64,000 nt of DNA from Ferrovibrio terrae (GTDB taxonomy: Bacteria; Pseudomonadota; Alphaproteobacteria; Ferrovibrionales; Ferrovibrionaceae): NCBI RefSeq assembly GCF_007197755.1, contig NZ_CP041636.1:682001-746000 (forward strand), written 5' to 3'. Below, one piece after another: positions 39,406 to 61,178 of this stretch (positions are counted from its first letter, which is position 1; each line of letters starts with the position of its first letter). The position numbers and the translations under genes were made by a program. The notes below the pieces were generated by a model. The model ran no database searches and was not told the DNA's origin. It saw only the letters and a program-made list of their open reading frames with translations.

Positions 39406-40968
39406 TCACTCACCTTGGTCGCGTAATTGGCGGCGCAGCAACTTTCCTGTGGGTGTTCTGGGAAGGCTTTGCACCAGCCGGATTTCCTTAGGCTGTTTCA
39501 TCCGCCCCAGCCGCCTCTTGCCGAATTCCCGCACTTTCTCCAAAAACTGCTGCGCTTCCATATCCGACAAGCTTGCGCGCACCTGAATGAACGCCACAGC
39601 TTTTTCACCAAAGTCTGGGTCAGGAAAACCGGCTACAGCGCAATCTAAGATCTCAGGTATCTCAAGAAGGGCAGACTCAATTTCCTGCGGGTAGATATTC
39701 ACACCGCCAGAGATGATCATGTCGTCTTGACGGTCTCTCAGGAAGAGGTACCCGTCTGCGTCGACATATCCGATATCTCCGAAGGTTTGGTAACCTTGGG
39801 CTGACGTCTTGGCAGCAGTTTTCTCCGGAGCATTAAAATACTGGAATGGAGCAGTACCTGAGAAATAGATTCGCCCTGTGACTTCTTTTCCTGCAGGCCG
39901 ATCCCCTTCATCAAGGATATGCAGATCTCCTTTACGCGCCTTTCCCACAGATCCTGGCTTTCGGAGCCACTCCTCGGACGTGATAGAACACAATCCCACT
40001 CCTTCAGAGCCAGAATAGTATTCGTGCAGAATTGGCCCCCACCATTCGATCATCGCTCGCTTAACGACACCGGCGCAGGGAGCCGCACCATGGATGGCAT
40101 ATCGATGATGTGAAGCCTCAAAAGCTCTGCGCTGAGCGTCCGGTAGACTCAGTAGGCGCTGAAACATAGTAGGCACCCACAGCGAATGGGTTATTTTCTC
40201 ATCGACCAGAAGTCTTAGCGCTTCGGCTGCGTCAAACCGATCCATAACCGTAACGCGTCCACCAGCCGCAAGGAAAGCCAGGGCAAATCTCAGCGGTGCG
40301 GCGTGATAGAGCGGAGACGTGGACAAGTAATGTGCATCCGCAACGATCTCAAACAGGGACAGTAGATCGCGAGCGAATGTCGGTGCACCGCTTCCGACTT
40401 GCTCCAATGTCGGCAGTGGCCGCCAGATGCCTTTGGGTGTGCCGGTTGTACCCGATGAATACATCATCAGGCCTCCGGGCTGCTCATCAGAGATTGGCGT
40501 CACAGGCAACTGAGACGCTTCACGCTCCAGCGAAACAAATCCATCCAGCTCCCCATTCGCAGCTACCCATTTAACCGGCCTTTCGACCATAGCCTGGAGC
40601 GAAGTCGCCAAATCCTTGTACTTGGCATCCAGGATCATCACCTGTGCCTGGCAATCTCGCACAATGTAGGCAGCCTCGGCGGCAGAAGCTCCGCTGGGAA
40701 TCGGTGTTAGATAAAGGCCGGCTCTATAAGCGGCCCAGACGGTTGCCAGAATCAGAGGGCCGTTGCTAAGCAGGAGTGCAACATGGTCACCTTTTCTCAA
40801 ACCGGCGCTACGCAGGAAGTGGGCAATCCGGTTGGCGAGTGTCTCGATATCCGCGTAGGTGCTCTGACTCCCATCGCCCATTCGAACAGCGAGCCGTTCT
40901 GGATCACGTTGAGCCCAGTCACGCAAGCCAAATTGCATCGCGCTATTACTCACCACCCTCTCCGTCAA
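39406..40968 (-). CDS. AMP-forming acyl-CoA synthetase
   Basis: A 520-residue ANL-superfamily ligase. MMYSSGTTGTPKGIW is the AMP-binding loop, YYSGSEGVG the adenine motif, GYVDADGYLFLRDRQDDMI the hinge and PRTPTGKLLRRQL the C-terminal catalytic lysine. It activates a carboxylic acid as its CoA ester. The longest reading starts at TTG, overlapping the mmsB stop (TTGA); ATG at 40938 is a plausible alternative. Its substrate is unknown. Position in an operon with valine-type genes suggests a branched-chain or alicyclic acid. Confidence 0.88.
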   Translation of the reverse strand: MTERVVSNSAMQFGLRDWAQRDPERLAVRMGDGSQSTYADIETLANRIAHFLRSAGLRKGDHVALLLSNGPLILATVWAAYRAGLYLTPIPSGASAAEAAYIVRDCQAQVMILDAKYKDLATSLQAMVERPVKWVAANGELDGFVSLEREASQLPVTPISDEQPGGLMMYSSGTTGTPKGIWRPLPTLEQVGSGAPTFARDLLSLFEIVADAHYLSTSPLYHAAPLRFALAFLAAGGRVTVMDRFDAAEALRLLVDEKITHSLWVPTMFQRLLSLPDAQRRAFEASHHRYAIHGAAPCAGVVKRAMIEWWGPILHEYYSGSEGVGLCSITSEEWLRKPGSVGKARKGDLHILDEGDRPAGKEVTGRIYFSGTAPFQYFNAPEKTAAKTSAQGYQTFGDIGYVDADGYLFLRDRQDDMIISGGVNIYPQEIESALLEIPEILDCAVAGFPDPDFGEKAVAFIQVRASLSDMEAQQFLEKVREFGKRRLGRMKQPKEIRLVQSLPRTPTGKLLRRQLRDQGE

Positions 40969-41855
40969 TGTCCTTTACGGATCAGGCCGATAATGGCTGA
41001 GTAATCAAGGGCACCACGCCCTGTATCCACGAATTCGGCATACATAGTGGTTGCCTCTGCACCAAGGGAAGTGTGCACACCTGTCGTCCGAGCCGCTTCC
41101 TGCGACAGCTTCAGATCCTTCAGCATCAGTTCGGCCGCGAAGCCCGGCTTGTAGTCGCGGTTGGCCGCCGAGGTTGGCACCGGGCCCGGCACCGGGCAGT
41201 GATTGAGCAGTGCCCAGCACGAGCCCGACGAGCTGCCGACGATGTCGAACATCGCCTGCGCGGACAGCCCGAGCTTCTCGGCCATCACGAAGGCTTCGGA
41301 AATGCCGATCATGGTGATGCCCAGCACCATGTTGTTGCACACCTTGGCAGCCTGGCCGTTTCCGGCGCCGCCGGCATGCACGATCTTCTTGCCCATGGCT
41401 TCCAGGATCGGCTTGGCCTTGGCGAAGGCCGCGTCGCTGCCGCCGACCATGAAAGTCAGCGCCGCATTCTCGGCGCCAGCGATGCCACCAGACACCGGCG
41501 CATCCAGCATCAGCATGCCCTTGGATTCGGCAGCCGCAATCGTTTCACGTGCCGTCTTCACGTCGATGGTCGAACTGTCGATGAACACAGTACCCGGCTT
41601 TGCCACCGACAGGATGCCCTTGTCGCCGGTATAGACGCTGGCGACATGCTTGCCGGCAGGCAGCATGGTGATCACGGCATCGACATCACGGGCGGCATCG
41701 GCAGCGGTTGCCGCCTTGGTGCCACCGGCATCGACCACCTTTTGCACCGGCTCGGGCATCAGGTCGAAAGCCTTCACGCTGTGGCCGGCCTTCAGCAGGT
41801 TGCGCGCCATCGGGCCGCCCATATTGCCGACGCCGATAAAGCCGATATTCGCCAT
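40965..41855 (-). CDS. mmsB: 3-hydroxyisobutyrate dehydrogenase
   Basis: A 296-residue beta-hydroxyacid dehydrogenase: NAD site GFIGVGNMGGPMARNL, substrate motif DAPVSGGIAGAENAAL and catalytic lysine region GAGNGQAAKVCNNM. It oxidises 3-hydroxyisobutyrate to methylmalonate semialdehyde in valine breakdown. ATG at 41855 is preferred over upstream ATGs (to 41885) because GGGAGG is correctly spaced for it. It lies between the isobutyryl-CoA dehydrogenase and acyl-CoA synthetase genes. Confidence 0.92.
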   Translation of the reverse strand: MANIGFIGVGNMGGPMARNLLKAGHSVKAFDLMPEPVQKVVDAGGTKAATAADAARDVDAVITMLPAGKHVASVYTGDKGILSVAKPGTVFIDSSTIDVKTARETIAAAESKGMLMLDAPVSGGIAGAENAALTFMVGGSDAAFAKAKPILEAMGKKIVHAGGAGNGQAAKVCNNMVLGITMIGISEAFVMAEKLGLSAQAMFDIVGSSSGSCWALLNHCPVPGPVPTSAANRDYKPGFAAELMLKDLKLSQEAARTTGVHTSLGAEATTMYAEFVDTGRGALDYSAIIGLIRKGH

Positions 41856-41885
41856 CACCATCCCTCCCGAAATATTTATAGTCAC

Positions 41886-43128: not shown

Positions 43129-44628
43129 TTACTTCATGGTCGGGATGTTGAACTCCGCGCCGGACCGGATGCCGGTCGGCCAGCGCGCGGTCACCGTCTT
43201 GATCTTGGTGTAGAACTTCACGCCTTCCGGGCCGTGCTGGTTGGTGTCGCCAAAGGCCGACTTCTTCCAGCCGCCGAAGGTGTGGAAGGCCAGCGGCACC
43301 GGGATCGGCACATTGATGCCGACCATGCCGACCTGCACCCTCGCTGCGAAGTCGCGGGCGGCATCGCCATCGCGGGTGAAGATCGCCACGCCGTTGCCGA
43401 ATTCATGCTCGGTCGGCAGTTTGGCGGCTTCCTCGAAGCTCTCGGTGCGCACGACGCTGAGCACCGGGCCGAAGATCTCTTCCTTGTAGATCTTCATCTC
43501 CGGCGTGACGTTGTCGAACAAGCAGCCACCCATGAAGTAGCCACCCTCGTAGCCCTGCAGGTTCAGGCCGCGACCATCGACCACCAGCTTGGCGCCTTCC
43601 GACACGCCGGTATCGACATAGCCCTTCACCTTGGCGAGGTGTTCCTTGGTCACCAGCGGACCCATCTCGGAGTCCTTGTCGGTGCTGGGGCCGACTTTGA
43701 GCGCGCGGACACGCGGCGCCAGCGCCTCGACCAGCTTGTCGGCCGTGCCCTTGCCGACCGGCACGGCGACCGAGACTGCCATGCAGCGTTCGCCGGCCGA
43801 GCCGTAGCCGGCGCCGATCAGCGCATCGACCGCCTGGTCCATGTCGGCATCCGGCATGATGATCATGTGGTTCTTGGCGCCGCCCATGGCCTGCACGCGC
43901 TTACCATGCGCCGCTGCGGTGGCGTAGACATACTGGGCGATCGGGGTCGAGCCGACGAAGCTGACCGCCTGGATGCGCGGATCGGTCAGGATGGTGTCGA
44001 CCGATTCCTTGTCGCCGATCATGCAGTTCAGCACGCCCGGAGGTGCGCCGGCTTCCAGCATCAGTTCGGCCAGGCGCAGCGGGCAGGACGGATCCTTTTC
44101 GCTGGGCTTGAGGATAAAGGTGTTACCGGCGGCAATCGCCACGGCAAACATCCACATCGGCACCATGGCCGGGAAATTGAACGGGGTGATGCCGGCGACG
44201 ACGCCGAGCGGCTGGCGCATCGAGTAGACGTCGATGCCGCGCGACACGCTGTCGGAATACTCGCCCTTCAGCAGATGCGGAATGCCGCAGGCGAACTCCA
44301 CCACTTCCAGGCCGCGCTGCACTGAACCACGGGCATCGGACACCACTTTTCCATGCTCGTTGGCCACCAAAAGCGCCAGCTCGTCGGCGTGTTTCTCGCA
44401 GAGTTCCTTGAACTTGAACATGACACGCGCGCGCGTCAACGGCGACGTGGCGCTCCACTCGGTAAATGCACGCTGGCTGTCGGCGATGGCGGCTTCGACT
44501 TCGGCCTTGGTGGCCAGCGGCGCCTTGCTGGCGACTTCGCCGGTGGTCGGGTTGTACACGTCGAGGAAACGACCCGATTTGCCGGCGACCTTCTTGCCAC
44601 CGATGAAATGATGCAACTCTTTTGCCAT
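43129..44628 (-). CDS. mmsA: Methylmalonate-semialdehyde dehydrogenase (CoA-acylating)
   Basis: A 499-residue ALDH of the MmsA group. It has [18 protein letters not shown], the catalytic cysteine in [17 protein letters not shown] and the family C-terminus [19 protein letters not shown]. It converts methylmalonate semialdehyde to propionyl-CoA, or malonate semialdehyde to acetyl-CoA. GGAGAG precedes the ATG. It heads the mmsA / acyl-CoA dehydrogenase / mmsB / synthetase block. A perfect palindrome lies 32-48 bp upstream. Confidence 0.95.
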
Positions 44629-45616: not shown

Positions 45617-45637
45617 TATTTGTCTGGGGAATACCAA

Positions 45638-47011: not shown

Positions 47012-47869
47012 TCAACCGATCTCGGCGATCCCCTGATCCAGCACTTTGCGTTCGCCGACAAAGGCGTCGAACCACACAACATCACCGCTATGCCAGAAGC
47101 GGAAGCGAACTGCGTCGCCTGGGAGTACAATACCGGCAAACCGGACACGCAGTGCCTTTAGCCGCCTAGGTTCTGCATCGCAAAATCGCATCATGACAAG
47201 TGCGCCAGCCAAGCCATACGTGGCCAAGCCATGCAAGATCGGCCGCTCGAAACCTGCGCGGCGCGCAATTTCATAGTCTGCGTGGAGCGGGTTGACGTCT
47301 CCCGAGAGGCGGTAAATCAACGCGCCACGAGGCGAAACTGTCACAGTTTCGTCGAGGTCCGCCTCACGTCCAGGTGGCGCAAGCAGCTCCATATCTGGAG
47401 GTGCGGAACCACCAAAGCCTCCGTTGCCACGCAACAGCAGCGTCTGATCAATTGAACAGTAAAGCTCGCCGGTCGATGCATCGCTGATCTCTCGTTCAAC
47501 GACACAGATTGCCCCCTTGCTGACGCCTCGATCATGCAGAGACTTGATCCGCGCCCGGCCGATAATCCTGGCCTGTGGCGGCAATTCTGCAATAAAACGG
47601 GCCGCCTGTCCGACATGTAACAATTTCGGCCAGTCGATGCCGAGCTCAGGTGCTTTGACCCACATTCCTGGGCTCGCCAGAGTCACGGCATAGGTCGGCA
47701 GCACCCGCAAGCGGTCTTCCATAAGGAAGCGCAAGTCCGGAGTGTCACCGGGTGTCAGAGGCAACCCCACGCCGAGCGCATAAAGGATGGCATCACGAGC
47801 ATCGTAGCTATGCTGCTTGTCTTCGAAGCGCCAGTCGAACAGGCGCTGAGGATCGAACAGAGCGCTCAC
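47012..47869 (-). CDS. MaoC-like (R)-specific enoyl-CoA hydratase 2, double hot-dog
   Basis: A 285-residue hydratase-2. The N-terminal half opens RDAILYALGVGLPLTPGD, and the C-terminal half carries the catalytic motif YRLSGDVNPLHADYEIARRA followed by PILHGLATYG. This matches the hydratase domain of peroxisomal multifunctional enzyme 2, forming (R)-3-hydroxyacyl-CoA. GTG at 47869 overlaps the upstream SDR stop as GTGA and gives a better start than TTG at 47881. It is probably the partner of that SDR. Confidence 0.87.
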   Translation of the reverse strand: MSALFDPQRLFDWRFEDKQHSYDARDAILYALGVGLPLTPGDTPDLRFLMEDRLRVLPTYAVTLASPGMWVKAPELGIDWPKLLHVGQAARFIAELPPQARIIGRARIKSLHDRGVSKGAICVVEREISDASTGELYCSIDQTLLLRGNGGFGGSAPPDMELLAPPGREADLDETVTVSPRGALIYRLSGDVNPLHADYEIARRAGFERPILHGLATYGLAGALVMMRFCDAEPRRLKALRVRFAGIVLPGDAVRFRFWHSGDVVWFDAFVGERKVLDQGIAEIG

Positions 47870-48783
47870 ACGGGATCCCAAGTAAAGACATCCCCCGACT
47901 TGTGGAGCGGGTAGAAGTCATTGGCGAACTGCGGGAAGACACGCTCAGCGATCGCATCCGGAGTCCAGCCGTCTGCGGTATGGGCTGTTCGGAATGGGCG
48001 GGCCTGGGAAAAAAGATAGATTTCGTTGTTGCGGGCACCAAAAACCTGCCCCGTGACCTTGGCCCCGGCATCCGAGCAAAGCGCCACACAAAGAGGCGCA
48101 ACTTTCTCCGGTATTAGCTTTTTGAGGCCTTCCACGCGTTTCTTCTGCTCCGGGGTTTCCTCTGGAATGGATTCCACCATGCGGGTCCAGGCAAATGGCG
48201 CCACCGCATTCGAACGGACATTGAATCTGGCCATATCGATAGCGATGGTTTTCGACATGGCTGCGATGCCAAGCTTGGCCGCAGAATAGTTCACCTGCGC
48301 CATATTACCGATCAGACCGCTGGTCGATGTCATATGAACATAGGCGCCAGACACCTGCTGCTTGAAATGCGGCGCAGCTGCCCGGCTGACGTTGAAAGTA
48401 CCTTTGAGATGCACGGAGATGACGGCATCGAAATCGTCTTCCGTCATCTTGTGGAAAAGGACGTCGCGAAGGTTTCCTGCGTTGTTCACGACTGCGTCGA
48501 TGCGGCCGAAGTTATCCAGAGCCGCCTGAACCATCGCATGTGCGCCGTCCCAGTCGGCAACGCTATGCCCATCTGCGACGGCTTGCCCACCTAGCTCCGC
48601 GATCTCGTCCACGACCTGCTGGGCCGGCGAAATGCTGGCAGCATCGTCACCTTTCAATGAAACGCCGAGATCATTGACGACAACGGCAGCACCTGCCTGA
48701 GCCATTGCCAGCGCAACGCCCCTACCGACGCCACGGCCGCCTCCCGTTACCAAGACAACCTTGCCTTGCATACTGGCGCTCAT
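47866..48783 (-). CDS. SDR, (3R)-hydroxyacyl-CoA dehydrogenase of MFE-2 type
   Basis: A 305-residue SDR with VVLVTGGGRGVGRGVALAMA, VVVNDLGVSLKGD, NNAGNLRDVLFHKM and YSAAKLGIAAMSK (YxxxK). VVNDLG followed by a long loop is typical of the dehydrogenase unit of MFE-2. An extended C-terminal tail (about 50 residues, YPLHKSGDVFTW) goes beyond the SDR core. AAGGAG precedes the ATG. It overlaps the hydratase gene by 4 nt, so the two are a split MFE-2 acting on (R)-hydroxyacyl-CoAs. Confidence 0.87.
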   Translation of the reverse strand: MSASMQGKVVLVTGGGRGVGRGVALAMAQAGAAVVVNDLGVSLKGDDAASISPAQQVVDEIAELGGQAVADGHSVADWDGAHAMVQAALDNFGRIDAVVNNAGNLRDVLFHKMTEDDFDAVISVHLKGTFNVSRAAAPHFKQQVSGAYVHMTSTSGLIGNMAQVNYSAAKLGIAAMSKTIAIDMARFNVRSNAVAPFAWTRMVESIPEETPEQKKRVEGLKKLIPEKVAPLCVALCSDAGAKVTGQVFGARNNEIYLFSQARPFRTAHTADGWTPDAIAERVFPQFANDFYPLHKSGDVFTWDPV

Positions 48784-48793
48784 CTCATACTCC

Positions 48794-49984
48794 TTAATAT
48801 GACTTCGGCAGGTCGAGGACTTTTTCAGCAATGAAGGACAGGATCAGCTGCTCGGTAATTGGTGCAATACGCGTCACCATCACTTCCCGGAACAATCGCT
48901 CGACATGATATTCCTTGGCATAGCCAAAACCGCCGTGGGTAAAGATGGCGCGTTCGCAAGCATCGTACCCGGCGCGCGCACCCAGTAACTTTGCGGCATT
49001 GGCTTCGGCACCACAGGGCTTTCCTGCGTCATAGAGATCGGCGGCCCTCATCGCCATCAGCCAGGCCGATTCAAGATAGGCCCACCGCTCGGCGAGTGGG
49101 TGCTGGATGCCCTGGTTCTGGCCGATAGGACGATCAAACACCACGCGTTCGCGCGCGTATTTCGCGGCTCGGCGCAAGGCGTCCTGCCCGATGCCAATGG
49201 CTTCGACAGCGATAAGCACGCGCTCAGGGTTCAGGCTGTCCAGGATGTAGTAAAAGCCCTTGCCTTCCGCGCCGATACGATGCTCTTCGGGAATGAACAG
49301 ATCTTCGATGAAGATCGCATTCGAATCGACCGCCTTGCGACCCATTTTCGGAATTCTCTGAACCTCGATCTTGGTGCGATCCAGATCGGTGTAGAAAATC
49401 GTTATTCCGTCTGTCGGCTTCTTGCAGTCCTCATACTTAGTGGTGCGCGCCAACAGCATGATCTTGTTGGCGACCTGCGCCGTCGACGTCCAGACCTTTT
49501 GGCCGCGTACGCGGTAACCGCCAGGAACCTTTTCGGCGAAGGTGCGAATCCGTGTCGTGTTGAGGCCCGCATCGGGCTCAGTGAATCCGAAACAGCATTG
49601 ATCCTTGCCTGCCACGAGGCCTGGAATCCACGCAGCCTTCTGCTCTGGCGTCGCATGTACCACGATGGGATGCGGCCCGAACAAATTGATATGGACTGAT
49701 GAAGTGGCGGCCATACCACCGCCATGGCTGGCTACTTCATGCATCATGATCGCAGCTTCGGTGACGCCGAGGCCAGAGCCACCGTATTCCTCGGGCATCG
49801 TAATGCCTAGCCAACCCGCATCTGCCATCGCCCGGTGGAATTCGCGCGGGAATTCTCCGTCCTCATCGCGCTTCAGCCAGTATTCATCGTCGAAACGCGA
49901 CACAACTCCACGCACGCCTTCGCGAATGGCCGCCCGGGTTTCTTCCAGGGACTCCCTATCCTGAGCTTCCTGCGTCTTGCTCAT
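48794..49984 (-). CDS. Acyl-CoA dehydrogenase
   Basis: A 396-residue FAD enzyme with CFGFTEPDAGLNTTRIRTFA, VWTSTAQVANKIMLLART and the FDRPIGQNQGIQHPLAE helix. The end reads TRIAPITEQLILSFIAEKVL, where most family members have the EGTNE catalytic glutamate. This marks a distinct subfamily in which the base must lie elsewhere. GGAAGG precedes the ATG. It is cotranscribed with the split MFE-2 genes (10 nt downstream) and the CitE-like gene upstream, so it probably makes the enoyl-CoA they use. Confidence 0.88.
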   Translation of the reverse strand: MSKTQEAQDRESLEETRAAIREGVRGVVSRFDDEYWLKRDEDGEFPREFHRAMADAGWLGITMPEEYGGSGLGVTEAAIMMHEVASHGGGMAATSSVHINLFGPHPIVVHATPEQKAAWIPGLVAGKDQCCFGFTEPDAGLNTTRIRTFAEKVPGGYRVRGQKVWTSTAQVANKIMLLARTTKYEDCKKPTDGITIFYTDLDRTKIEVQRIPKMGRKAVDSNAIFIEDLFIPEEHRIGAEGKGFYYILDSLNPERVLIAVEAIGIGQDALRRAAKYARERVVFDRPIGQNQGIQHPLAERWAYLESAWLMAMRAADLYDAGKPCGAEANAAKLLGARAGYDACERAIFTHGGFGYAKEYHVERLFREVMVTRIAPITEQLILSFIAEKVLDLPKSY

Positions 49985-49988
49985 GACG

Positions 49989-50864
49989 CTATCCTTCCAT
50001 TGCGGCCACCAAGGTGCGGCGTGCCAGTTTCAAATGCGGGATGTCATACATCTTTCCGTCGATACCGATGGTGCCGAGGCCGGGGTTGGCCTCAAAAGCA
50101 GCAACGATGCGACGCGCCAGTTCCAGATCCTCTGCGCTCGGCGCAAAGGCCACATTGATGCCGCTCACCTGGGCCGGGTGAATAGCCAAACGGCCGGCGA
50201 ACCCGTCTCGCCGCGACAAGCGGCAGGCGCGCACGAGGCCTTCATCATCTCGGAAATCGGCGAAGAGGGTATCGAGCGCCGGAACGTCAGCCGCGGCTGC
50301 ACCCATCAGGCATAGCGTCCTGGCAAGCTGATACGGCGTAGACCAGTCGCCATTATCATCCTTATTTGAGGTTGAACCGACCACAGCCGCCAGATCCTCG
50401 GCACCCCATGTCAGCGCCACAAGTCTGGGATGAGCTGGCGCATAGCTGCCAAGGGCAAACATCGCAAGCGCCGTTTCAGTCGCAACGACGATGATTTTTA
50501 CCGTTCCGACCACCATGCCTGCGCGTGCTTCCAATGCATCCAGGCAGTGCCCAAGCCTGACCACATCATGACCGCCATTGCTTTTTGGCAACAGGATGCC
50601 ATCCAGACCCGGCCTCACCACGGTAGCCAAGTCCTCCATTGCAAGGCCGGTATCGAAGGCATTGATCCGGACCCAGAAGCTCCAATTGCGGGGGCCGGCA
50701 GAGGCATCGATCCAGGTCGCCAGCGTTGCGCGTGCCGCCGACTTCATCGGCGGCGCAACACTGTCTTCAAGATCAAGGATTAAGCCGTCTGCGCCGGCTT
50801 CACGCGCTTTTGTGAATTTCTTCTCGCTATCCGCCGGGACAAAGAGAAGCGAGCGTAGCCTCAT
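49989..50864 (-). CDS. CitE-like (HpcH/HpaI family) CoA-ester lyase
   Basis: A 291-residue TIM-barrel lyase. [55 protein letters not shown] and [10 protein letters not shown] follow the citrate-lyase-beta/malyl-CoA-lyase pattern with its metal glutamate and aspartate. It would cleave a 3-hydroxyacyl-CoA such as malyl-, methylmalyl- or citramalyl-CoA. ATG at 50864 overlaps the MaoC stop (ATGA) and has GGAGG. The MaoC-lyase pairing suggests hydration followed by cleavage. Confidence 0.88.
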
Positions 50865-51313
50865 TCCGGCCTCCGCATCATCAGTGCCAAGCGCCGGCAT
50901 TCGCATACGACTTCGTCGCGCTGGTTCAGGCCTCTATGCAGGAACGTGACGATGCCCTGGGTCGGGCGTGATTTGCTTTCACGCAACGTAACCACTTCGG
51001 TTTCCGCATGTATGGTATCGCCGACGAAGACCGGCTTGGGGAATCGAACATCCTCCCAGCCGAGATTCCCCACTGTCGTGCCAAGGGTGGTGTCAGTAAT
51101 CGAGAGCCCGACTACTAGGCCAAGAGTGAAGACGCTATTGACCAACGGCTTGCCGAATTCAGTCTTGGAAGAATAGTCGTGGTCCAGGTGGATTGCTGCC
51201 GTATTCATGGTCAGCGTCGAGAACAGAACGTTGTCGGTTTCGGTTACCGTGCGACGAACATCGTGCCGAATCACTTCGCCCTGCGTGAAGCCTTCATAAT
51301 AACGGCCCGCCAT
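50861..51313 (-). CDS. MaoC-family dehydratase, single hot-dog
   Basis: A 150-residue MaoC-like protein with [20 protein letters not shown] and [16 protein letters not shown]. This is the hot-dog pattern with the catalytic Asp/His placed as in mesaconyl-CoA and itaconyl-CoA hydratases. TAGGGAGGA precedes the ATG. It is fused translationally to the CitE-like lyase (ATGA), indicating a hydratase-lyase step on a C4-C5 dicarboxylyl-CoA. Confidence 0.85.
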
Positions 51314-51323
51314 TCATTCCTCC

Positions 51324-52523
51324 CTAATTCAGCCGGCCAAGAACCGACACTGCCGCCACACTGTTGGATGGCTGGCCACCAAGATTATGGGTGAGGCCGA
51401 AATCGATTTTCTTGATCTGGCGTGCTCCGGCACGGCCAAGCAGCTGATTGTATACCTCATAGGCCATCCTCAGGCCCGATGCGCCAACTGGATGCCCGAA
51501 GCACTTCAGGCCGCCATCTGCCTGACAGGGCACTGCGCCCTCCCGATCATAACGACCATCAAGAATGTCGAACGGCGCCCGCCCTTCGTCCGAAAGCCCC
51601 AGGTCTTCCATCGTCACCAACTCTGTAATCGAGAAGCAGTCATGCACCTCGGTTAGCTTGAGATCGGCGCGCGGATCTGTCAGGCCCGCTTCCTGGTACG
51701 CTCGGCCGGCAGCGATACGGGTATTTCGCACATACGAGCCATCCCAGGCGCCGTACTGCATTTCCCAGCCATTCGAGGCACAAAGCTGGACCGATTTGAC
51801 AGTAACCAAGTCGGTCTTACCCAGGCCACGGGCGATATCCGGCGTTGTGACGATGGCACACGCCGCCCCATCCGATACGCCACAGCAATCAAAGAGACCC
51901 AGCGGGTCCGCAATCATCGGAGCATTGAGGATTGTTTCCATCTCCACCGCTTTTCGCAGATGGGCCTTCTCACTCATTGCGCCGTTCTGATGGCTTTTCC
52001 AGGATACATGGGCCATCGCCCGCTTCAGATCTGTCGCTGTAATGCTGTGACGCGCCGCGTAGGCACCAGCAAGTTGAGCGAATGTCCCCGGCGCGGAGCC
52101 GTAGGGCATCCACAGGTCGTTTACCGAGCCCTTAGTACGAATCGGGAGACCGCCAAAGCCGGTATCCTTAAGCTTTTCAACGCCAAGGGCCAAAGCGATG
52201 TCGCAAGCCCCTGAAGCAACAGCGTAGATGGCACCACGCAGCGCCTCAGTGCCGGTTGCGCACATATTTTCCACACGCGTCACCGGCATCGGAGGCAAGC
52301 GCAATGCAGTGGCCAGCGGAATTGCCGAATTGCCAACGTTGAAATCGTCCAGCGCCGCACCAAACCATGCAGCATCGATTTGCCGACGCTCGATTCCGGC
52401 ATCCTGCAAGGCCTCTTGAAAAGCCTCGACCATAAGCATGTCAGAACTCGCATCCCAACGTTCACCAAAACGGGTGCATCCCATGCCGGCGATGACAACC
52501 TTGTCCTTGATACCGCTCGCCAT
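51324..52523 (-). CDS. SCP-x-type thiolase/acyl-CoA acetyltransferase
   Basis: A 399-residue thiolase-fold protein with VENMCATGTEALRGA (reactive cysteine), LTEVHDCFSITELVTMEDL, GGLKCFGHPVGASGLRM and GLTHNLGG. These are features of the SCP-x/archaeal acetoacetyl-CoA thiolase branch. ATG at 52523 overlaps the stop of the HMG-CoA-synthase/OB-fold gene as TGATG. This branch needs a DUF35 partner in several systems, and here one is fused to the neighbour. Confidence 0.88.
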   Translation of the reverse strand: MASGIKDKVVIAGMGCTRFGERWDASSDMLMVEAFQEALQDAGIERRQIDAAWFGAALDDFNVGNSAIPLATALRLPPMPVTRVENMCATGTEALRGAIYAVASGACDIALALGVEKLKDTGFGGLPIRTKGSVNDLWMPYGSAPGTFAQLAGAYAARHSITATDLKRAMAHVSWKSHQNGAMSEKAHLRKAVEMETILNAPMIADPLGLFDCCGVSDGAACAIVTTPDIARGLGKTDLVTVKSVQLCASNGWEMQYGAWDGSYVRNTRIAAGRAYQEAGLTDPRADLKLTEVHDCFSITELVTMEDLGLSDEGRAPFDILDGRYDREGAVPCQADGGLKCFGHPVGASGLRMAYEVYNQLLGRAGARQIKKIDFGLTHNLGGQPSNSVAAVSVLGRLN

Positions 52524-53974
52524 CACACCTTCTCCCGCGCAGAGACCGAGCGCTTGGCCGGTGCGCCTTTCCAGAAATAGGTACGGAAGTCCCGTTGCCG
52601 ATCGATCGCCTTTATGCGGAAGCGCATCCGCAAGGGATCACCTACGGCCGGCGTATTGCCCTCCACATCACAAATTTCCATTGCTACTCGCGCGCCATTC
52701 TCGAACTGGACCAGACCGAAGTAGAATGGTGGATCGGGCGTGAAATTCAGTCGATCGGCGGTGATCGATGCCACTTGAGCCGGCACATCACGCAAGACGA
52801 CATCGACATAATCTTCAGGCCCGGTTGAATCGGGCGACACCGGCATCGGTGTTTTCGGGAACTGTACGTTGCCGCGCTCATCCCTGCCGCCAACAAAACC
52901 ATGCATCTCACGCCCGTGCCGCGCCAGCACGGAGGCATTGGTTTTCTGGTTCACTTCGGCACGTGGCCCCCATTCCAGAGGCAGCATGCCAGTAAGACTC
53001 AGGAAGCGAGAATAATTTCGCAGCGGTTGACCTTCGGCCAAGGCCTGGGCCGTCAACTTCTCACGGACTGTTGCCGTTACTTCAAGGATGAGGGCTTCGG
53101 CCCCATTCCCAAAGCCTACCAGTAGTAGGCGGTCGCCTGGCACAGAGCGCTCCAAAGCAAGACCGAGGCCGAATAGTGGCATTGCGGCACCGAGATCTCC
53201 CGCCTCGACCGCAATGTCGCTACAGATGTTTGGGGCTTTAAGGCCAAGCGGGCGCGATACAGCGGCATAAGTGCCCGCGACCGGTTCCGGGACAACGGCA
53301 AGCGCAATATCGCTGCCCTGAACGCCGGCCGCGGCCATCGCACGCCTGATCACCGGGGCGTAAACCTCGGCAACCGCACTGTCGCGGACGAAACGCTCCT
53401 CCGTCACATACGGCAAACCGATTCCCGCAGTGGTGTAGCTGTCGAGCAGGTCGCGATTGATGCTGGCAGCCCCCAGCAAACGGGCCACACCGGGACCTTC
53501 CCCCACCAGAGCTGCTGCGCCGCCATCGCCCCAGGTGAGATGCGGCCCACCGCCTGGCCGTGCCTGGCGTTTTTCACCGGCCGCGATCAATTCCAAACCC
53601 TCGGTAGTGCTTTGCAAAGCACGCAAGAGAGCCGCCACGGCACAGCGCCTCGTACCAGCCACGTCGAGCGCGTCGACGAAAGGATCAAGCTGCAGGGCAT
53701 CAACAAGAATGCCGGCCTGCGAACGGTCCAAGAAGGGTGCAGATGTAGAGGCGAAGGTGACGCGAGATATGGATCCAGCGGCACCCGCGTCCAGGACTAG
53801 CCTGGCTGCTTCAACGGCCTGTGTGAGGGCATCTTCATCCCAGCCAGCGACTGCGCGACGCCCGCGACCAGAACCACCCAAGCCTGCCCACCGGAGTTCA
53901 GACTTGGCGGTCGCCTGCTCAAAGCGCAATAGTGGTAGGTAGCCCCCCACGCCGTGCAATGACTTCGCCGACAT
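52523..53974 (-). CDS. Fusion: HMG-CoA-synthase-like domain plus C-terminal OB-fold (DUF35-like) domain
   Basis: A 483-residue protein. Residues 1 to about 330 have the thiolase-related HMG-CoA-synthase/KAS-III fold, with VAGTRRCAVAALLRAL as candidate reactive-cysteine region and GDRLLLVGFGNGAEALIL near the end. The last about 130 residues resemble a DUF35 OB-fold, including GNVQFPKTPMP and FGLVQFENGARVAMEICDV. The zinc-ribbon cysteines that normally precede such an OB-fold are absent. GGGAGG precedes the ATG. It couples directly to the thiolase and diverges from badH. Confidence 0.8.
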   Translation of the reverse strand: MSAKSLHGVGGYLPLLRFEQATAKSELRWAGLGGSGRGRRAVAGWDEDALTQAVEAARLVLDAGAAGSISRVTFASTSAPFLDRSQAGILVDALQLDPFVDALDVAGTRRCAVAALLRALQSTTEGLELIAAGEKRQARPGGGPHLTWGDGGAAALVGEGPGVARLLGAASINRDLLDSYTTAGIGLPYVTEERFVRDSAVAEVYAPVIRRAMAAAGVQGSDIALAVVPEPVAGTYAAVSRPLGLKAPNICSDIAVEAGDLGAAMPLFGLGLALERSVPGDRLLLVGFGNGAEALILEVTATVREKLTAQALAEGQPLRNYSRFLSLTGMLPLEWGPRAEVNQKTNASVLARHGREMHGFVGGRDERGNVQFPKTPMPVSPDSTGPEDYVDVVLRDVPAQVASITADRLNFTPDPPFYFGLVQFENGARVAMEICDVEGNTPAVGDPLRMRFRIKAIDRQRDFRTYFWKGAPAKRSVSAREKV

Positions 53975-54095: not shown

Positions 54096-54860
54096 ATGAA
54101 TGATCTAAAAGGAAAAATTGCCATCGTCACTGGCGGCGGCCAAGGCATCGGCAAGGCCATCACCTTGCGCCTGGCAGCGGAAGGCTGCCTTGTCGCGATC
54201 TTCGACCTCCGCCCTGACGCAGCAGAAGAAACCGCACAGGCCGCCCGCTCCACCGGAGGCAATGTGAAGGTCTACGGCGTCGATGTTAGTGACCAAGCCG
54301 CCGTGAATGCGGCCGTCGCTTCAGTCGAGGCCGACCTGGGTCCGGTCTGGCTCCTGGTGAACAATGCCGGCTGGGATCAACCTGCCCCGTTCCTCAGCAC
54401 CGACAGCACGCTTTGGAACAAGATCATTGCCATCAATCTGATGGGCCCGCTGAACCTGCATAAGGCAGTCTGCCCGGGCATGGTTCAGAGGGGCGCGGGC
54501 CGTGTGGTCAATATCGCTTCCGACGCCGCGCGCGTTGGCACCGCTACAGAAGCCGTCTATTCCGCCTGCAAGGGCGGCATTATTGCCTTCACCAAGTCGG
54601 TAGCGCGCGAGTTGGCGCGTAACAATGTGCTCCTCAACGCGGTCTGCCCTGGCCCGACTAATACGCCGATGATGCAACAGGTACTCGGCACCGGCGAACA
54701 GGCCGTAAAATGGAAAGATGCCATGGTGCGCGGAATCCCGCTCAAGCGCATGGGCGAACCGGAGGACTATGCCGGCATTGTTGCCTTCCTAGCGTCGTCC
54801 GATGCCGGTTACATAACCGGCCAGACCATCTCGGTATCCGGCGGACTGAATATGATCTGA
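54096..54860 (+). CDS. badH: 2-hydroxycyclohexanecarboxyl-CoA dehydrogenase (SDR), BadH-like
   Basis: A 254-residue SDR with IAIVTGGGQGIGKAITLRLA, VNNAGWDQPAPF, YSACKGGIIAFTKSVAREL (YxxxK) and AVCPGPTNTPMM. GWDQPAPF and the CPGPT segment match the BadH subgroup I know from cyclohexanecarboxylate degraders. It oxidises 2-hydroxycyclohexanecarboxyl-CoA to the ketone with NAD. The following genes, an AliB/BadJ-like dehydrogenase and a BadI-like ring hydrolase, support it. Confidence 0.85.
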   Translation: MNDLKGKIAIVTGGGQGIGKAITLRLAAEGCLVAIFDLRPDAAEETAQAARSTGGNVKVYGVDVSDQAAVNAAVASVEADLGPVWLLVNNAGWDQPAPFLSTDSTLWNKIIAINLMGPLNLHKAVCPGMVQRGAGRVVNIASDAARVGTATEAVYSACKGGIIAFTKSVARELARNNVLLNAVCPGPTNTPMMQQVLGTGEQAVKWKDAMVRGIPLKRMGEPEDYAGIVAFLASSDAGYITGQTISVSGGLNMI

Positions 54861-54893: not shown

Positions 54894-56042
54894 ATGATAC
54901 TGACAGAAGATCAGAGGGCGCTGCAGGATGTCGCGCGCCGATTTGCGCGTGAAAGACTACTCCCCGATTACCAGAAGCGCGAAATTGAGGGCACGATGGA
55001 CCGCGCCCTGCTCCGCGAGATGGGTAAGCTCGGCTTTCTTGGTGCCGACTCGCCCGAGGAGTTGGGCGGCCTGGGCGTCGACGCCGTCACCGCTGGCCTC
55101 ATTGCCGAAGAGTTGGCCTATGGCGACTTCAATATTTCCGCCCTGTCGGTGGCAACGTCACTAAACATCGCGATCCTCCTGAATCACGCCAAGCCTGACG
55201 TCATTCAGCAAGCCGTTCCGAAAATGATCAGCGGCGAGCACATCATGGCGATCTGCTTGACTGAGCCGCGTGGTGGATCGGATGCGGCAAACTTAATACT
55301 TCGCGCACGCCGTGATGGAGATTCGTATGTCCTGAATGGCGAAAAGACCTCGATTACCTTCGCTGGGTGTGCCGATATTTTTCTGGTCTTTGCTCGGACC
55401 GGAACACCGGAACAAGGGGCGAAAGGTGTCTCGGCTTTCTTCGTCCCCGAAGGAACCAAGGGCATCACATGCACAAAATTCAACGATCTGGGCGGCGCCA
55501 TTAGCGGTCGTGGCTCAGTCTTCTTTGACGATGTGCGAGTGCCGGCGAGTTGCATGATCGGCACCGAAGGCAAAGGCTTCTCGCAGGTCATGCAAGGCTT
55601 CGACTACAGCCGAGCCCTGATCGCTCTGCAGTGTTGTGGCGCGGCACAAGCCTCTTTGGATGAAGCCTGGGCTTACGCGAAAGAGCGCGAGGCCTTCGGG
55701 CGACCGATTGGCCAGTTCCAGGGCGTCACCTTCCCGCTCTCCGAAGGGGAAACACATATCGCGGCAGCGCGACAGCTTTCATATCACACACTCTCCTTGC
55801 GTGATGCGGGGCTGCCCCACACAGCTGAAGCGGCAATGGTGAAATGGCTCGGACCTCGCACGGCTTTCGATGTCATTCATCAGTGCCTGCTCACTTTCGG
55901 GCATTACGGCTGGTCGAAGGACCTTCCGCATCAACAGCGGCTACGCGACGTGATGGGTCTTGAGATCGGGGACGGCACTGCGGGCATCATGAAGCAGATT
56001 ATTGCTCGGGAACGTATCGGTCGCGCGGCTATTGCCTACTGA
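54894..56042 (+). CDS. aliB: Cyclohexanecarboxyl-CoA dehydrogenase-like acyl-CoA dehydrogenase (AliB/BadJ)
   Basis: A 382-residue acyl-CoA dehydrogenase: MAICLTEPRGGSDAANLILR, TSITFAGCADIFLVFARTG and FGRPIGQFQGVTFPLSEGE. At the usual catalytic-glutamate position it reads EIGDGTAGIMKQII, so the glutamate is an aspartate. Alicyclic acyl-CoA dehydrogenases are known for an altered base. It lies between badH-like and badI-like genes; the reaction would be ring desaturation of cyclohexanecarboxyl-CoA. GGAGG precedes the ATG. Confidence 0.82.
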   Translation: MILTEDQRALQDVARRFARERLLPDYQKREIEGTMDRALLREMGKLGFLGADSPEELGGLGVDAVTAGLIAEELAYGDFNISALSVATSLNIAILLNHAKPDVIQQAVPKMISGEHIMAICLTEPRGGSDAANLILRARRDGDSYVLNGEKTSITFAGCADIFLVFARTGTPEQGAKGVSAFFVPEGTKGITCTKFNDLGGAISGRGSVFFDDVRVPASCMIGTEGKGFSQVMQGFDYSRALIALQCCGAAQASLDEAWAYAKEREAFGRPIGQFQGVTFPLSEGETHIAAARQLSYHTLSLRDAGLPHTAEAAMVKWLGPRTAFDVIHQCLLTFGHYGWSKDLPHQQRLRDVMGLEIGDGTAGIMKQIIARERIGRAAIAY

Positions 56043-56078: not shown

Positions 56079-56870
56079 ATGGCGGACAACACATTCGAAG
56101 ATGTGATCTATGAACTGCGCGGTCGCGCCGCATGGATCATCATCAATCGTCCAAAGGTGTACAACGCCTTCCGGGGTCGCACCGTGGAAGAACTGATCCA
56201 GGCGTTTCAACTGGCCGGCAACGACAAGAATGTCTCCAGCATTGTGCTGACGGGCGCCGGCGACAAGGCCTTCTGCACTGGCGGTGACCAGTCGGCTCAT
56301 GAGGGCAACTATGACGGCCGTGGCGTCGTGGGCCTGCCGATCGATGAGCTGCAGAGCATCATTCGCGATGTTCCCAAGCCGGTGATTGCCCGTGTTAACG
56401 GCTTCGCCATTGGCGGAGGCAACGTTCTTGCGACGCTCTGTGACCTCACAATCGCAGCCGAGTCCGCCCAGTTCGGCCAGGTTGGCCCGAAAGTCGGCTC
56501 GTTCGATGCCGGCTGGGGTACTGCCTTCCTTGCTCGTCACGTCGGCGACAAGAAAGCGCGCGAGATTTGGTTCCTCAACGAGCGCTACACTGCTCAGCAG
56601 GCCGCAGAAATGGGTCTGGTGAACAAGGTTGTTCCGCTCGCCGAGCTGGATGCGGCCGTCACGGACTGGACTGATAAGCTGGCCGAACGTTCCCCTACAG
56701 CGTTGGCCTTCCTGAAGCGGTCGTTTAATGCGGACTCGGATGCGATCCGCGGCATTTCCAACATGGCCCTTCATGCCGTGAAGCTCTACTACGCCACTGA
56801 AGAGTCTAAGGAAGGCGTGAACGCGTTCAACGAGAAGCGTAAGCCTGATTTCCATAAGTTCGTGGAGTAA
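56079..56870 (+). CDS. badI: 2-ketocyclohexanecarboxyl-CoA hydrolase
   Basis: A 263-residue crotonase-fold enzyme. The segments AWIIINRPKVYNAFRGRTVE, AFCTGGDQSAHEGNYDGRG, VPKPVIARVNGFAIGGGNV and GPKVGSFDAGWGTAFLARHV follow BadI of Rhodopseudomonas almost block for block, as I remember it. It opens the ring of 2-ketocyclohexanecarboxyl-CoA to pimelyl-CoA by retro-Claisen hydrolysis. MenB-like dihydroxynaphthoyl-CoA synthase is the nearest alternative, but no menaquinone genes are near. Confidence 0.9.
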   Translation: MADNTFEDVIYELRGRAAWIIINRPKVYNAFRGRTVEELIQAFQLAGNDKNVSSIVLTGAGDKAFCTGGDQSAHEGNYDGRGVVGLPIDELQSIIRDVPKPVIARVNGFAIGGGNVLATLCDLTIAAESAQFGQVGPKVGSFDAGWGTAFLARHVGDKKAREIWFLNERYTAQQAAEMGLVNKVVPLAELDAAVTDWTDKLAERSPTALAFLKRSFNADSDAIRGISNMALHAVKLYYATEESKEGVNAFNEKRKPDFHKFVE

Positions 56871-56873
56871 TGC

Positions 56874-58094
56874 ATGGCCCCGGCACCAATTCACCCGAGC
56901 GACCTGCACCGCCATCTCCCTAAAGAGGGTTTGGTCTGGTGGCACGGTTGCTCGGGTGAATCGGCGGCCTTCAGGTCAGCACTAGCCGCGAGCGATCTGC
57001 ATAACCTGACGCTTACTGGGATTTACGTTCCTGGCCTGAATCGTCTGGATTCTCTGCTGGCGGCCGGAGCTTCAGCGCAAAGCTTTTTCATGCTGCCCGA
57101 ACTTGCCGCAAGGCAGGAGAAGACCAAGTTTCTTCCGCTGTGCTATCGCGACATCGGACGTACATTGCGACAGCAGCCGCCGGTTGCGGCAATCTTTTCG
57201 GTATCCCCCCCCAATGCCAATGGTTACTGCAGCTTTGGCACGGTCACCGATTTTCTCGCCGACCTTTGGCGTGACATTCCCATTCGCATTGCCCATATAA
57301 ACCCGCTCATGCCAACGACTCTTGGCGAGCATGGTATTCCGTTCAAAGAATTGACTTTCTACACCGAAGTACCGGAACCATTAATGGAGTCAGATCCCGG
57401 TATTGACGCCGTCGCGGAACGTATCGGTGCCCTGGCGGCGGAAATCATCCCCGATGGCTCCACCATTCAGGCCGGACTTGGACGCGCGCCGGAAGCGGTG
57501 TTACGCAGCCTCGTTTCTCATCGCGGCCTCGCAATTCATTCAGGGCTGATCGGCGACTCCACATTGCAATTGCTGAATGCTGGCGCGTTGCGGGCAAATG
57601 CACCGATCACGGCTGGAGTGGCTATAGGTACGCGCCAGCTTTATGACGCAGTGAGCAGTGCCGCCTTCCAATTCTGTCCGCCGTCACACACACACGATAT
57701 TCGCGTGCTGGCTTCGCTGAAGCAGTTCGTAACCATCAACTCGGCGATCGAAGTCGATTTGTCCGGTCAGGCGTACGCTGAAGCGGTGCCTAAAGGCATG
57801 ATTTCCGGACCAGGAGGCGCCTCTGATTTTGCTGCCGGTGCGCGCGCCAATGACGGGCTGCGCCTCGTTGTCCTACCCGCAACGACCGGTAAGGTCAGCC
57901 GTATCATCACGCCTGATCTGGCCAGCGGCCCAATCTCTCTGGGCCGCTTCGACACTGACATCGTGGTGACAGAATACGGAGTTGCTGATCTGCGCGGTTT
58001 GAGCCATCGCGGTCGAGCAGAAGCCATGATCCGGATTGCAGCACCTGCGTTCCAGGAATTGGCTACGCCTTACCTCACCCGGATCATCAACTAG
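56874..58094 (+). CDS. Acetyl-CoA hydrolase/CoA-transferase family (Cat1/4-hydroxybutyrate type)
   Basis: A 406-residue CoA-transferase. SPPNANGYCSFGTVTDF, GSTIQAGLGRAPEAVL, NSAIEVDLSGQAYAE (expected reactive glutamate in NSAIEVDL), PGGASDFAAGAR and VVTEYGVADLRGLSHRGRAE are the family landmarks. It would move CoA between acetyl-CoA and an acid, charging a ring acid or dicarboxylate. Its ATG lies 3 nt after badI, so it belongs to that operon. Confidence 0.87.
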   Translation: MAPAPIHPSDLHRHLPKEGLVWWHGCSGESAAFRSALAASDLHNLTLTGIYVPGLNRLDSLLAAGASAQSFFMLPELAARQEKTKFLPLCYRDIGRTLRQQPPVAAIFSVSPPNANGYCSFGTVTDFLADLWRDIPIRIAHINPLMPTTLGEHGIPFKELTFYTEVPEPLMESDPGIDAVAERIGALAAEIIPDGSTIQAGLGRAPEAVLRSLVSHRGLAIHSGLIGDSTLQLLNAGALRANAPITAGVAIGTRQLYDAVSSAAFQFCPPSHTHDIRVLASLKQFVTINSAIEVDLSGQAYAEAVPKGMISGPGGASDFAAGARANDGLRLVVLPATTGKVSRIITPDLASGPISLGRFDTDIVVTEYGVADLRGLSHRGRAEAMIRIAAPAFQELATPYLTRIIN

Positions 58095-60245: not shown

Positions 60246-61178
60246 TTAGAACGCGACGTTATTGCCACCCTTCAGACCCAGCATAGCCCGGGCTTCTTCG
60301 GGAGTGGCGATCTCGATAGAGAGGTCTTTCAGAATTCGTACAATCTTTGAGACCTGCTCGGCATTTGATTTTGCGAGCTCGCCGCGTGCAATGAAGATGC
60401 TATCCTCAAGGCCGACGCGCACATGACCGCCCATGGTTGCATTGTTCATGGCGATCGGCATCTGGTTCCGCCCCGCAGCCAGCACCGACATGTAGTAATT
60501 GTCACCGAACAGCCGGTCCGCCGTCGCACGCATATGTACCAGATGATCAACATGCGCGCCGATACCACCAAGGATGCCGAATACGCCCTGGATGAATAAC
60601 GGGCCCTTCACCAGACCGCGGTCAACGAAATGCGCCAGATTGTAAAGATGGCCTATGTCGTAGCATTCGAATTCGAAGCGCGTACCGTTGGCCGAAAGCT
60701 CCGTCAGCCCGCGTTCGATCTGGGCGAATGTGTTCGACAGAATGAAGTCACGCGTCATTTCGAGATACGGACGCTCCCACGCGAACTTGAACTCGTGCAT
60801 CTTCTCGGCAGCAGCTGAGATGTTGAAATTCAGGGACCCCATATTCATCGACGCGACTTCGGGCTGCGCCCATTTGGCTGCAGCCAACCGCTCATCGATG
60901 GTCATGCCAAGGCCGCCGCCGGTCGTAATGTTAATGACCGCGTCGCATTCGGCCTTGATGCGCGGCAGGAAACGCGCAAAGGCTTCCGGCTTTTGTGTGG
61001 GCTGACCCGTTTCCTCGTTTCGCGCATGCAGATGCAGGATCGCTGCGCCGGCCTTGGCGGCGGCGATCGAGTCACTGGCAATCTGCTCGGCCGTAATGGG
61101 CAGATACGGCGTCATGGTGGGGGTATGAATCGATCCCGTGACGGCGCAGCTGATGATGACCTTATTGGCTTTGCGCAT
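60246..61178 (-). CDS. BKACE-family beta-keto acid cleavage enzyme (DUF849)
   Basis: A 310-residue TIM-barrel enzyme with KVIISCAVTGSIHTPTMTPY, ILHLHARNEETGQPTQ (zinc HxH), INITTGGGLGMTIDERL and NATMGGHVRVGLEDSIFI. These are the landmarks of BKACE proteins, which cleave a beta-keto acid with acetyl-CoA to acetoacetate and a new CoA ester. The substrate side chain is not readable. GAGGGG precedes the ATG. Product acetoacetate could feed the thiolase genes at 51-54 kb. Confidence 0.88.
   Translation of the reverse strand: MRKANKVIISCAVTGSIHTPTMTPYLPITAEQIASDSIAAAKAGAAILHLHARNEETGQPTQKPEAFARFLPRIKAECDAVINITTGGGLGMTIDERLAAAKWAQPEVASMNMGSLNFNISAAAEKMHEFKFAWERPYLEMTRDFILSNTFAQIERGLTELSANGTRFEFECYDIGHLYNLAHFVDRGLVKGPLFIQGVFGILGGIGAHVDHLVHMRATADRLFGDNYYMSVLAAGRNQMPIAMNNATMGGHVRVGLEDSIFIARGELAKSNAEQVSKIVRILKDLSIEIATPEEARAMLGLKGGNNVAF

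Follow-up and report, generated by a model that had tools for sequence, protein, structure and literature searches.

An apparently degenerate HMG-CoA-synthase/DUF35 fusion paired with a thiolase in Ferrovibrio terrae: a probable heteromeric thiolase of a catabolic cluster

A stretch of 64,000 nucleotides from Ferrovibrio terrae (NZ_CP041636.1, positions 682,001 to 746,000; hereafter the window) carries two overlapping genes, one encoding a fusion of a 3-hydroxy-3-methylglutaryl-coenzyme A (HMG-CoA) synthase-like domain with a DUF35/OB-fold domain (FUS), the other an SCP-2-type thiolase (THI). The synthase-like part has lost its active-site triad, the thiolase retains its putative catalytic residues, and the two proteins are obligate partners. 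Because of this combination of a dead synthase, an intact thiolase and obligate pairing, FUS and THI are read as a single CoA-dependent enzyme, a heteromeric thiolase whose fused subunit is a non-catalytic scaffold. The enzyme would probably be a 3-oxoacyl-CoA thiolase, built on a dead-synthase/OB scaffold and cutting a branched CoA ester of the 3-oxo-pimelyl type.

The fusion protein and its thiolase partner

The FUS family profile aligns over positions 3-336 to residues 4-348 of the archaeal HMG-CoA synthase 6esq_I (349 residues), and over positions 354-478 to residues 5-128 of the DUF35 chain 6esq_E (130 residues), with a linker of about 18 residues between the two parts. AlphaFold2, supplied with an alignment built without plasmid-derived rows, models FUS as one confident chain (mean predicted local distance difference test score, pLDDT, 92.3; predicted template modelling score, pTM, 0.94), and the top Foldseek matches of this model are MucABC, archaeal HMG-CoA synthase and PhlA. 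Based on the full-length profile alignments, the model and the fold matches, FUS unites in a single chain two subunits of a complex type that is already known. By sequence, its synthase-like domain is closer to PhlA (164 bits) than to archaeal HMG-CoA synthase (137 bits), and FUS falls below the cut-offs of the HMG-CoA-synthase models PRK04262 (103.8 bits, cut-off 244) and TIGR00748 (74.2 bits, cut-off 353).

The profile alignment places archaeal Cys114 opposite Arg109 of FUS. Among 94 FUS relatives, the Glu and Cys of the triad are absent from every member (0/94 each) and the His is kept in 7 and absent from 87; the triad residues are likewise missing from distant fusions of Betaproteobacteria and Rhodococcus. 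As judged from these alignments, the synthase-like domain is non-catalytic as an HMG-CoA synthase throughout the family, and because the Glu-Cys-His triad is lost across it, both HMG-CoA synthesis and thiolase-to-synthase channelling are excluded on active-site grounds. PhlA likewise lacks the Cys and the Glu, PhlC alone being catalytic in PhlACB (PMC6392133; PMC12955522).

The minus-strand junction of the two genes reads GGTGTGATGGCG, in which the TGA stop (52525-52523) shares bases with an ATG start (52523-52521). This ATG, which gives a protein of 399 amino acids, is probably the true start of THI in place of the GTG chosen by the open reading frame (ORF) finder, since homologues start there and the TGATG junction is consistent with it; THI residue numbers are counted from the GTG at 52526. 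THI scores well above the cut-off of the SCP-2-type thiolase model NF004810/PRK06157 (647.6 bits, cut-off 403). In the alignment the nucleophile C89 is kept in all 93 sequences, H295 and C297 in 91 and H345 in 90, the remaining rows being alignment gaps; an HDCF motif carries His295/Cys297 and a GHP motif carries His345. A nucleophilic Cys together with HDCF characterises SCP-2 thiolases; in the Sal aldolase the Cys position holds Gly, and YDCY replaces HDCF (PMC12329534). The predicted Cys-His-Cys-His catalytic set of THI is intact. Its profile scores higher with the archaeal 6esq thiolase (230 bits) than with BbsB (166) or PhlC (84), and the score against the BbsB equivalog NF053628 (135 bits) lies below the cut-off of 750.

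The initial annotation had described a thiolase gene overlapping a synthase-like gene through TGATG, with synthase-like and OB-fold parts in one protein and a likeness to the archaeal thiolase/HMG-CoA synthase/DUF35 complex. All of this is borne out: both ORFs are present on the minus strand with the overlap read directly, the single confident chain aligns at full length to 6esq_I and then to 6esq_E, and the profile alignments confirm the homology. A working, channelled synthase, as the archaeal comparison would imply, falls with the triad, whose loss the annotation had itself named as a refuting observation.

Obligate pairing and zinc-ribbon loss

A sample of 399 genomes spread over the phylum was searched for the NF004810 thiolase and for FUS. 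Both occur in the identical 10 genomes, with 11 copies each, and there are 10^19.4 ways of choosing 10 genomes from 399. In almost every one of 92 loci, which come from several phyla, the two genes are adjacent on the same strand, so the arrangement is not a chance one; the gap between them in the fetched loci has a median of 4 bases and is at most 300 bases in 91 of the 92. Both proteins are also found in Rhodococcus and Streptomyces. FUS and THI are obligate partners and very likely form a physical heteromer. FUS has changed faster than THI: members of the window clade share on average 37% identity with the remaining members in FUS and 65% in THI, a difference that fits a scaffold working next to a catalytic subunit.

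The zinc ribbon of the DUF35 part has four or more cysteines in 58 of the 94 FUS members, one in 20 and none in 16. The last group includes the window protein together with those of QY30, Sphingopyxis, Novosphingobium, Mesorhizobium, Paracoccus, Bradyrhizobium and others (loci L011, L012, L014-L026). In the FUS tree all 16 cysteine-free members fall on one side of a branch of length 1.04 with a Shimodaira-Hasegawa-like approximate likelihood ratio test (SH-aLRT) support of 100, and the thiolase tree recovers the same clade. The close relatives of the host carry only four-cysteine or one-cysteine forms, about 35-39% identical to the window FUS, so that horizontal acquisition of the window cluster is likely. 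One member of the family (L008) is identical to that of Desertibaculum subflavum, which places the host among Alphaproteobacteria close to that species.

Gene neighbourhood and comparison with known systems

The BadH-, AliB- and BadI-like genes form an operon divergent from the FUS/THI pair and encode enzymes for the ring opening of cyclohexanecarboxyl-CoA (Table 1); of 71 long loci, 18 carry BadI and the same 18 carry BadH. To the left of the pair, an electron-transfer flavoprotein pair accompanies HIBADH and MmsA, and the 462-residue protein is one that recurs in related clusters.

Table 1. Features of the FUS/THI locus and its surroundings in window coordinates (scores in bits)
Feature	Position	Strand	Evidence or remark
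Fusion protein FUS	52523..53974	minus	483 aa; pseudo-HMG-CoA-synthase + DUF35/OB fold; ORF, profile vs PDB, AlphaFold2 model, Foldseek
HMG-CoA-synthase-like domain, FUS residues 1-336	52967..53974	minus	triad lost: T77, R109, P229 at the Glu, Cys, His positions
DUF35/OB-fold domain, FUS residues 354-478	52541..52915	minus	profile matches 6esq_E, 5m3k_B; PF01796 25.8 (gathering 27.1)
Degenerate zinc ribbon, FUS residues 361-389	52808..52894	minus	no Cys in window protein
TGATG stop/start overlap FUS/THI	52521..52525	minus	sequence read directly
Thiolase THI, PRK06157 type	51324..52523	minus	C89, H295, C297, H345 intact
MaoC1, (R)-enoyl-CoA hydratase, RipB-like	50861..51313	minus	NF038241 149, below cut-off 340
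CitE-like C-C lyase, RipC-like	49989..50906	minus	NF038242 160.7, below cut-off 375
Acyl-CoA dehydrogenase ACAD1	48794..49984	minus	
SDR1, 3-hydroxyacyl-CoA dehydrogenase-like short-chain dehydrogenase/reductase (SDR)	47866..48831	minus	
MaoC2, MFE-2-type hydratase	47012..47881	minus	
462-aa protein	45620-47008		N-terminal enoyl-CoA hydratase half resembling FadJ/FadB; C-terminal part without Pfam hit
MmsA, CoA-acylating methylmalonate-semialdehyde dehydrogenase	43129..44628	minus	TIGR01722 688, above cut-off 448
3-Hydroxyisobutyrate dehydrogenase HIBADH, distal valine pathway	40965..41885	minus	TIGR01692 401, above cut-off 292
BadH-like 2-hydroxycyclohexanecarboxyl-CoA dehydrogenase	54096..54860	plus	TIGR03206 333, cut-off 431, best hit
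AliB-like cyclohexanecarboxyl-CoA dehydrogenase	54894..56042	plus	TIGR03207 517, cut-off 575, best hit
BadI-like 2-ketocyclohexanecarboxyl-CoA hydrolase, ring opening	56079..56870	plus	TIGR03210 422, cut-off 468, best hit
Acetyl-CoA hydrolase/transferase-family CoA-transferase	56874..58094	plus	PF13336
BKACE beta-keto-acid cleavage enzyme (Kce)	60246..61178	minus	NF053538 518, above cut-off 430

The model whose cut-off is exceeded by BKACE is named 3,5-dioxohexanoate:acetyl-CoA transferase, a name that may be too narrow for the family. Phloroglucinol/triacetate degradation, which this name suggests, was rejected, no other gene of such a pathway being recognised. Itaconate degradation by RipABC was also set aside: the RipB- and RipC-like genes lie far under the cut-offs, and the ring-opening genes explain them better.

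The catabolic setting described in the initial annotation is evident from the ring-opening, hydratase, lyase, CoA-transferase and distal valine genes around the pair. This context favours the degradative carbon-carbon reaction that was suggested there and lends no support to a branching condensation. It was also right about the absence of mevalonate genes nearby: the host genome lacks a canonical HMG-CoA synthase (PF08540), and its single HMG-CoA reductase gene is over 1 Mb distant from FUS/THI (G000:C1:1815561-1816673; L147:9424-10821), in a locus that probably serves mevalonate catabolism. A mevalonate role of the pair was rejected, given the missing canonical synthase and the remote position of the sole reductase in a catabolic-looking cluster. 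The neighbours of the reductase gene encode a class III CoA-transferase, an enoyl-CoA hydratase and a periplasmic binding protein.

The closest published counterpart is the monoterpene island of Castellaniella defragrans, where a MarR gene, a 1023-bp hypothetical gene, CDM25298, CDM25299 and CDM25300 follow one another (PMC4109377). A transposon mutant in the 1023-bp gene does not grow on monoterpenes, CDM25298 (hypothetical) and CDM25299 (acetyl-CoA acetyltransferase) were detected only on phellandrene, and CDM25300 is an acetyl-CoA hydrolase/transferase (PMC4109377). The same island carries MrcD/E/F (BadH/BadI/hydratase) and CDM25256-58 ((R)-specific enoyl-CoA hydratase, citrate lyase, acyl-CoA dehydrogenase), and methacrylyl-CoA and valine-type steps were also proposed for C. 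defragrans (PMC4109377). The window holds this mrc-type gene set: BadH-like and BadI-like proteins, a hydratase, an (R)-hydratase, a citrate-lyase-like protein, an acyl-CoA dehydrogenase, the thiolase pair and the CoA-transferase. No CtmAB limonene dehydrogenase or other entry enzyme was recognised in the window, no dedicated query search having been made.

In one related locus (L136), the order is MarR, DUF7064, FUS, THI and CoA-transferase, and BadI stands on that contig at a distance of 18 kb. The C. defragrans island has in common with the FUS/THI clusters this succession of MarR, a DUF7064-sized gene and CoA-transferase, as well as the BadH/BadI/hydratase/lyase neighbours. In Azoarcus KH32C, FUS, THI and CoA-transferase lie in one plasmid region beside mrc-like genes, and its MrcD/E homologues are the closest to those of C. 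defragrans. The FUS/THI pair is very probably the counterpart of CDM25298/CDM25299, which differ in having been published simply as a 'hypothetical protein' and an 'acetyl-CoA acetyltransferase'. The island of the window extends to the right, where a DUF7064 gene stands outside the window (L144:1518-2459, about 65014-65958 in window numbering). A DUF7064 gene also directly precedes FUS in L136 and matches the gene of the C. defragrans transposon mutant.

A second parallel is the estrogen (edc) operon of Novosphingobium, in which BadI-like, thiolase and 'HMG-CoA synthase' genes are consecutive; no role was assigned there to the last of them (PMC7793797). In Novosphingobium tardaugens (EGO55_13550/13555) the thiolase adjoins the 'HMG-CoA synthase', which adjoins the BadI-like gene. 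FUS probably corresponds to this 'HMG-CoA synthase'.

With the archaeal complex (6ESQ), the nearest solved relative of THI, the pair shares the same three folds and the adjacency of a thiolase to synthase-fold and DUF35 parts, FUS spanning both partner subunits. It differs in that the synthase catalytic residues are gone, synthase and DUF35 are fused, the zinc site is lost in the clade of the window, and the setting is catabolic and not one of mevalonate synthesis. The Friedel-Crafts acyltransferase PhlACB (PDB 5M3K, 9SKH) and MucABC (PDB 9VBO) also combine a non-catalytic PhlA-like, a catalytic thiolase-fold and an OB-fold part; in PhlACB, however, PhlA and PhlB are separate chains, PhlC is distant from THI, and the reaction is CoA-independent. 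The highest-ranking fold match of FUS is MucABC of Streptococcus macacae (PDB 9VBO/9VBT), a solved complex with a PhlA-like subunit. The benzoylsuccinyl-CoA thiolase BbsAB (PDB 7PXP) is likewise a catabolic CoA-dependent thiolase that requires a DUF35 partner, but it has no synthase-like part. In the steroid aldolases Ltp2-ChsH2 and Sal-Shy the thiolase fold is again held by a DUF35 domain; these differ in lacking the nucleophilic Cys and in catalysing retro-aldol cleavage (PMC12329534). A literature search found nothing specific on such a fusion, nor on itaconyl/citramalyl plus cyclohexane pathways.

Proposed reaction, alternatives and significance

In the favoured mechanism, Cys89 of THI would take up the acyl group with the assistance of His295/Cys297 and His345, and CoA would release the product. 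FUS would replace the separate PhlA- and PhlB-like subunits (or archaeal synthase and DUF35), serving as the scaffold by which the CoA/substrate pocket is completed. A branched pimelyl-CoA would arise when a BadI-type enzyme opens a 4-substituted 2-oxocyclohexanecarboxyl-CoA; the best-fitting substrate would be of the monoterpene-derived perillyl-CoA type, giving 3-isopropenylpimelyl-CoA after ring opening. Following one round of beta-oxidation, THI-FUS would remove acetyl-CoA from the 3-oxo form and leave 3-isopropenylglutaryl-CoA. Dehydrogenation of this branched glutaryl-CoA by ACAD1 and hydration by MaoC1 would produce a tertiary HMG-CoA analogue, which the CitE-like lyase may split to a beta-keto acid; BKACE and/or the CoA-transferase could then lead to methacrylyl-CoA or isobutyryl-CoA and into the adjacent valine pathway. 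The presence of a hydratase and a citrate-lyase-type lyase would be explained in this way, because the beta-branch would block ordinary beta-oxidation. The steps between 3-isopropenylglutaryl-CoA and methacrylyl-CoA are those suggested by the gene set.

Several observations weigh against this assignment. The BadH, AliB, BadI, RipB-like and RipC-like matches all lie under their curated cut-offs, which makes their exact substrates tentative; BadI is missing from the clusters of many FUS/THI relatives, which shows that the pair is not confined to ring opening; the match of CDM25298 to the fusion comes from gene order, size and neighbours; and in 2 of the 11 pairs the partners lie on different contigs. 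The clusters without BadI also speak for a heteromeric thiolase with another substrate, such as cyclohexanecarboxylate, a naphthenic or other alicyclic acid, or, as in edc with its three consecutive genes (PMC7793797), a bulky steroid-like intermediate. In Sphingopyxis and Burkholderia, the clusters include a gene of the alkane-monooxygenase or desaturase family, whose product could oxidise a methyl group on the ring. Such a substrate is possible but rather unlikely, as the citrate-lyase/hydratase/dehydrogenase trio, the DUF7064 gene and the distal valine genes match the monoterpene island best.

A different chemistry would apply if the pair worked as a PhlACB/MucABC-like CoA-independent C-acyltransferase in reverse; it would then cleave a C-acyl or beta-diketone bond of a carbocycle, and the thiolase would carry out no CoA thioester chemistry. 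The dead synthase is common to PhlA, which is the nearest relative of the domain by sequence, and the fold is nearest to MucABC, 6esq and PhlA; this explanation is nonetheless improbable, because THI is far nearer to the archaeal CoA-dependent thiolase than to PhlC and the rest of the cluster consists of acyl-CoA enzymes. The conserved Arg/Lys beside the lost Cys, together with the fast-evolving, zinc-free OB part in the window clade, would also allow the synthase-like domain to be a new substrate-handling or catalytic module, for instance binding, positioning or passing on 3-hydroxy-3-isopropenylglutaryl-CoA, a suggestion that is equally doubtful. A retro-aldolase of the Ltp2/Sal type, with the OB domain holding a thiolase-fold aldolase that acts on a beta-hydroxyacyl-CoA, would account for the DUF35 partner as in ChsH2-Ltp2 and Shy-Sal (PMC12329534), yet it is very improbable given the retained nucleophilic Cys and a motif that is HDCF and not YDHF or YDCY. 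Least probable of all is an archaeal-style channelled thiolase and HMG-CoA-synthase-like condensing enzyme, synthetic or reversible on HMG-CoA-like esters: both FUS parts are full-length homologues and the proposed lower pathway would include an HMG-CoA analogue, but the triad losses, the lack of a canonical synthase gene and the remote, catabolic-looking location of the only reductase argue strongly against it.

If FUS and THI do form the proposed heteromeric thiolase, a gene that many degradation clusters carry under the label of an HMG-CoA synthase, an OB-fold protein or a 'hypothetical' protein would be an obligate non-catalytic thiolase partner, and a vacant slot would be filled in two published pathways, those of monoterpene degradation in Castellaniella and estrogen degradation in Novosphingobium. 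An archaeal assembly would have turned catabolic through the loss of one active site, the fusion of two subunits and, in one clade, the dropping of the zinc site. It thereby becomes possible to test what dead synthase subunits do in thiolase complexes.

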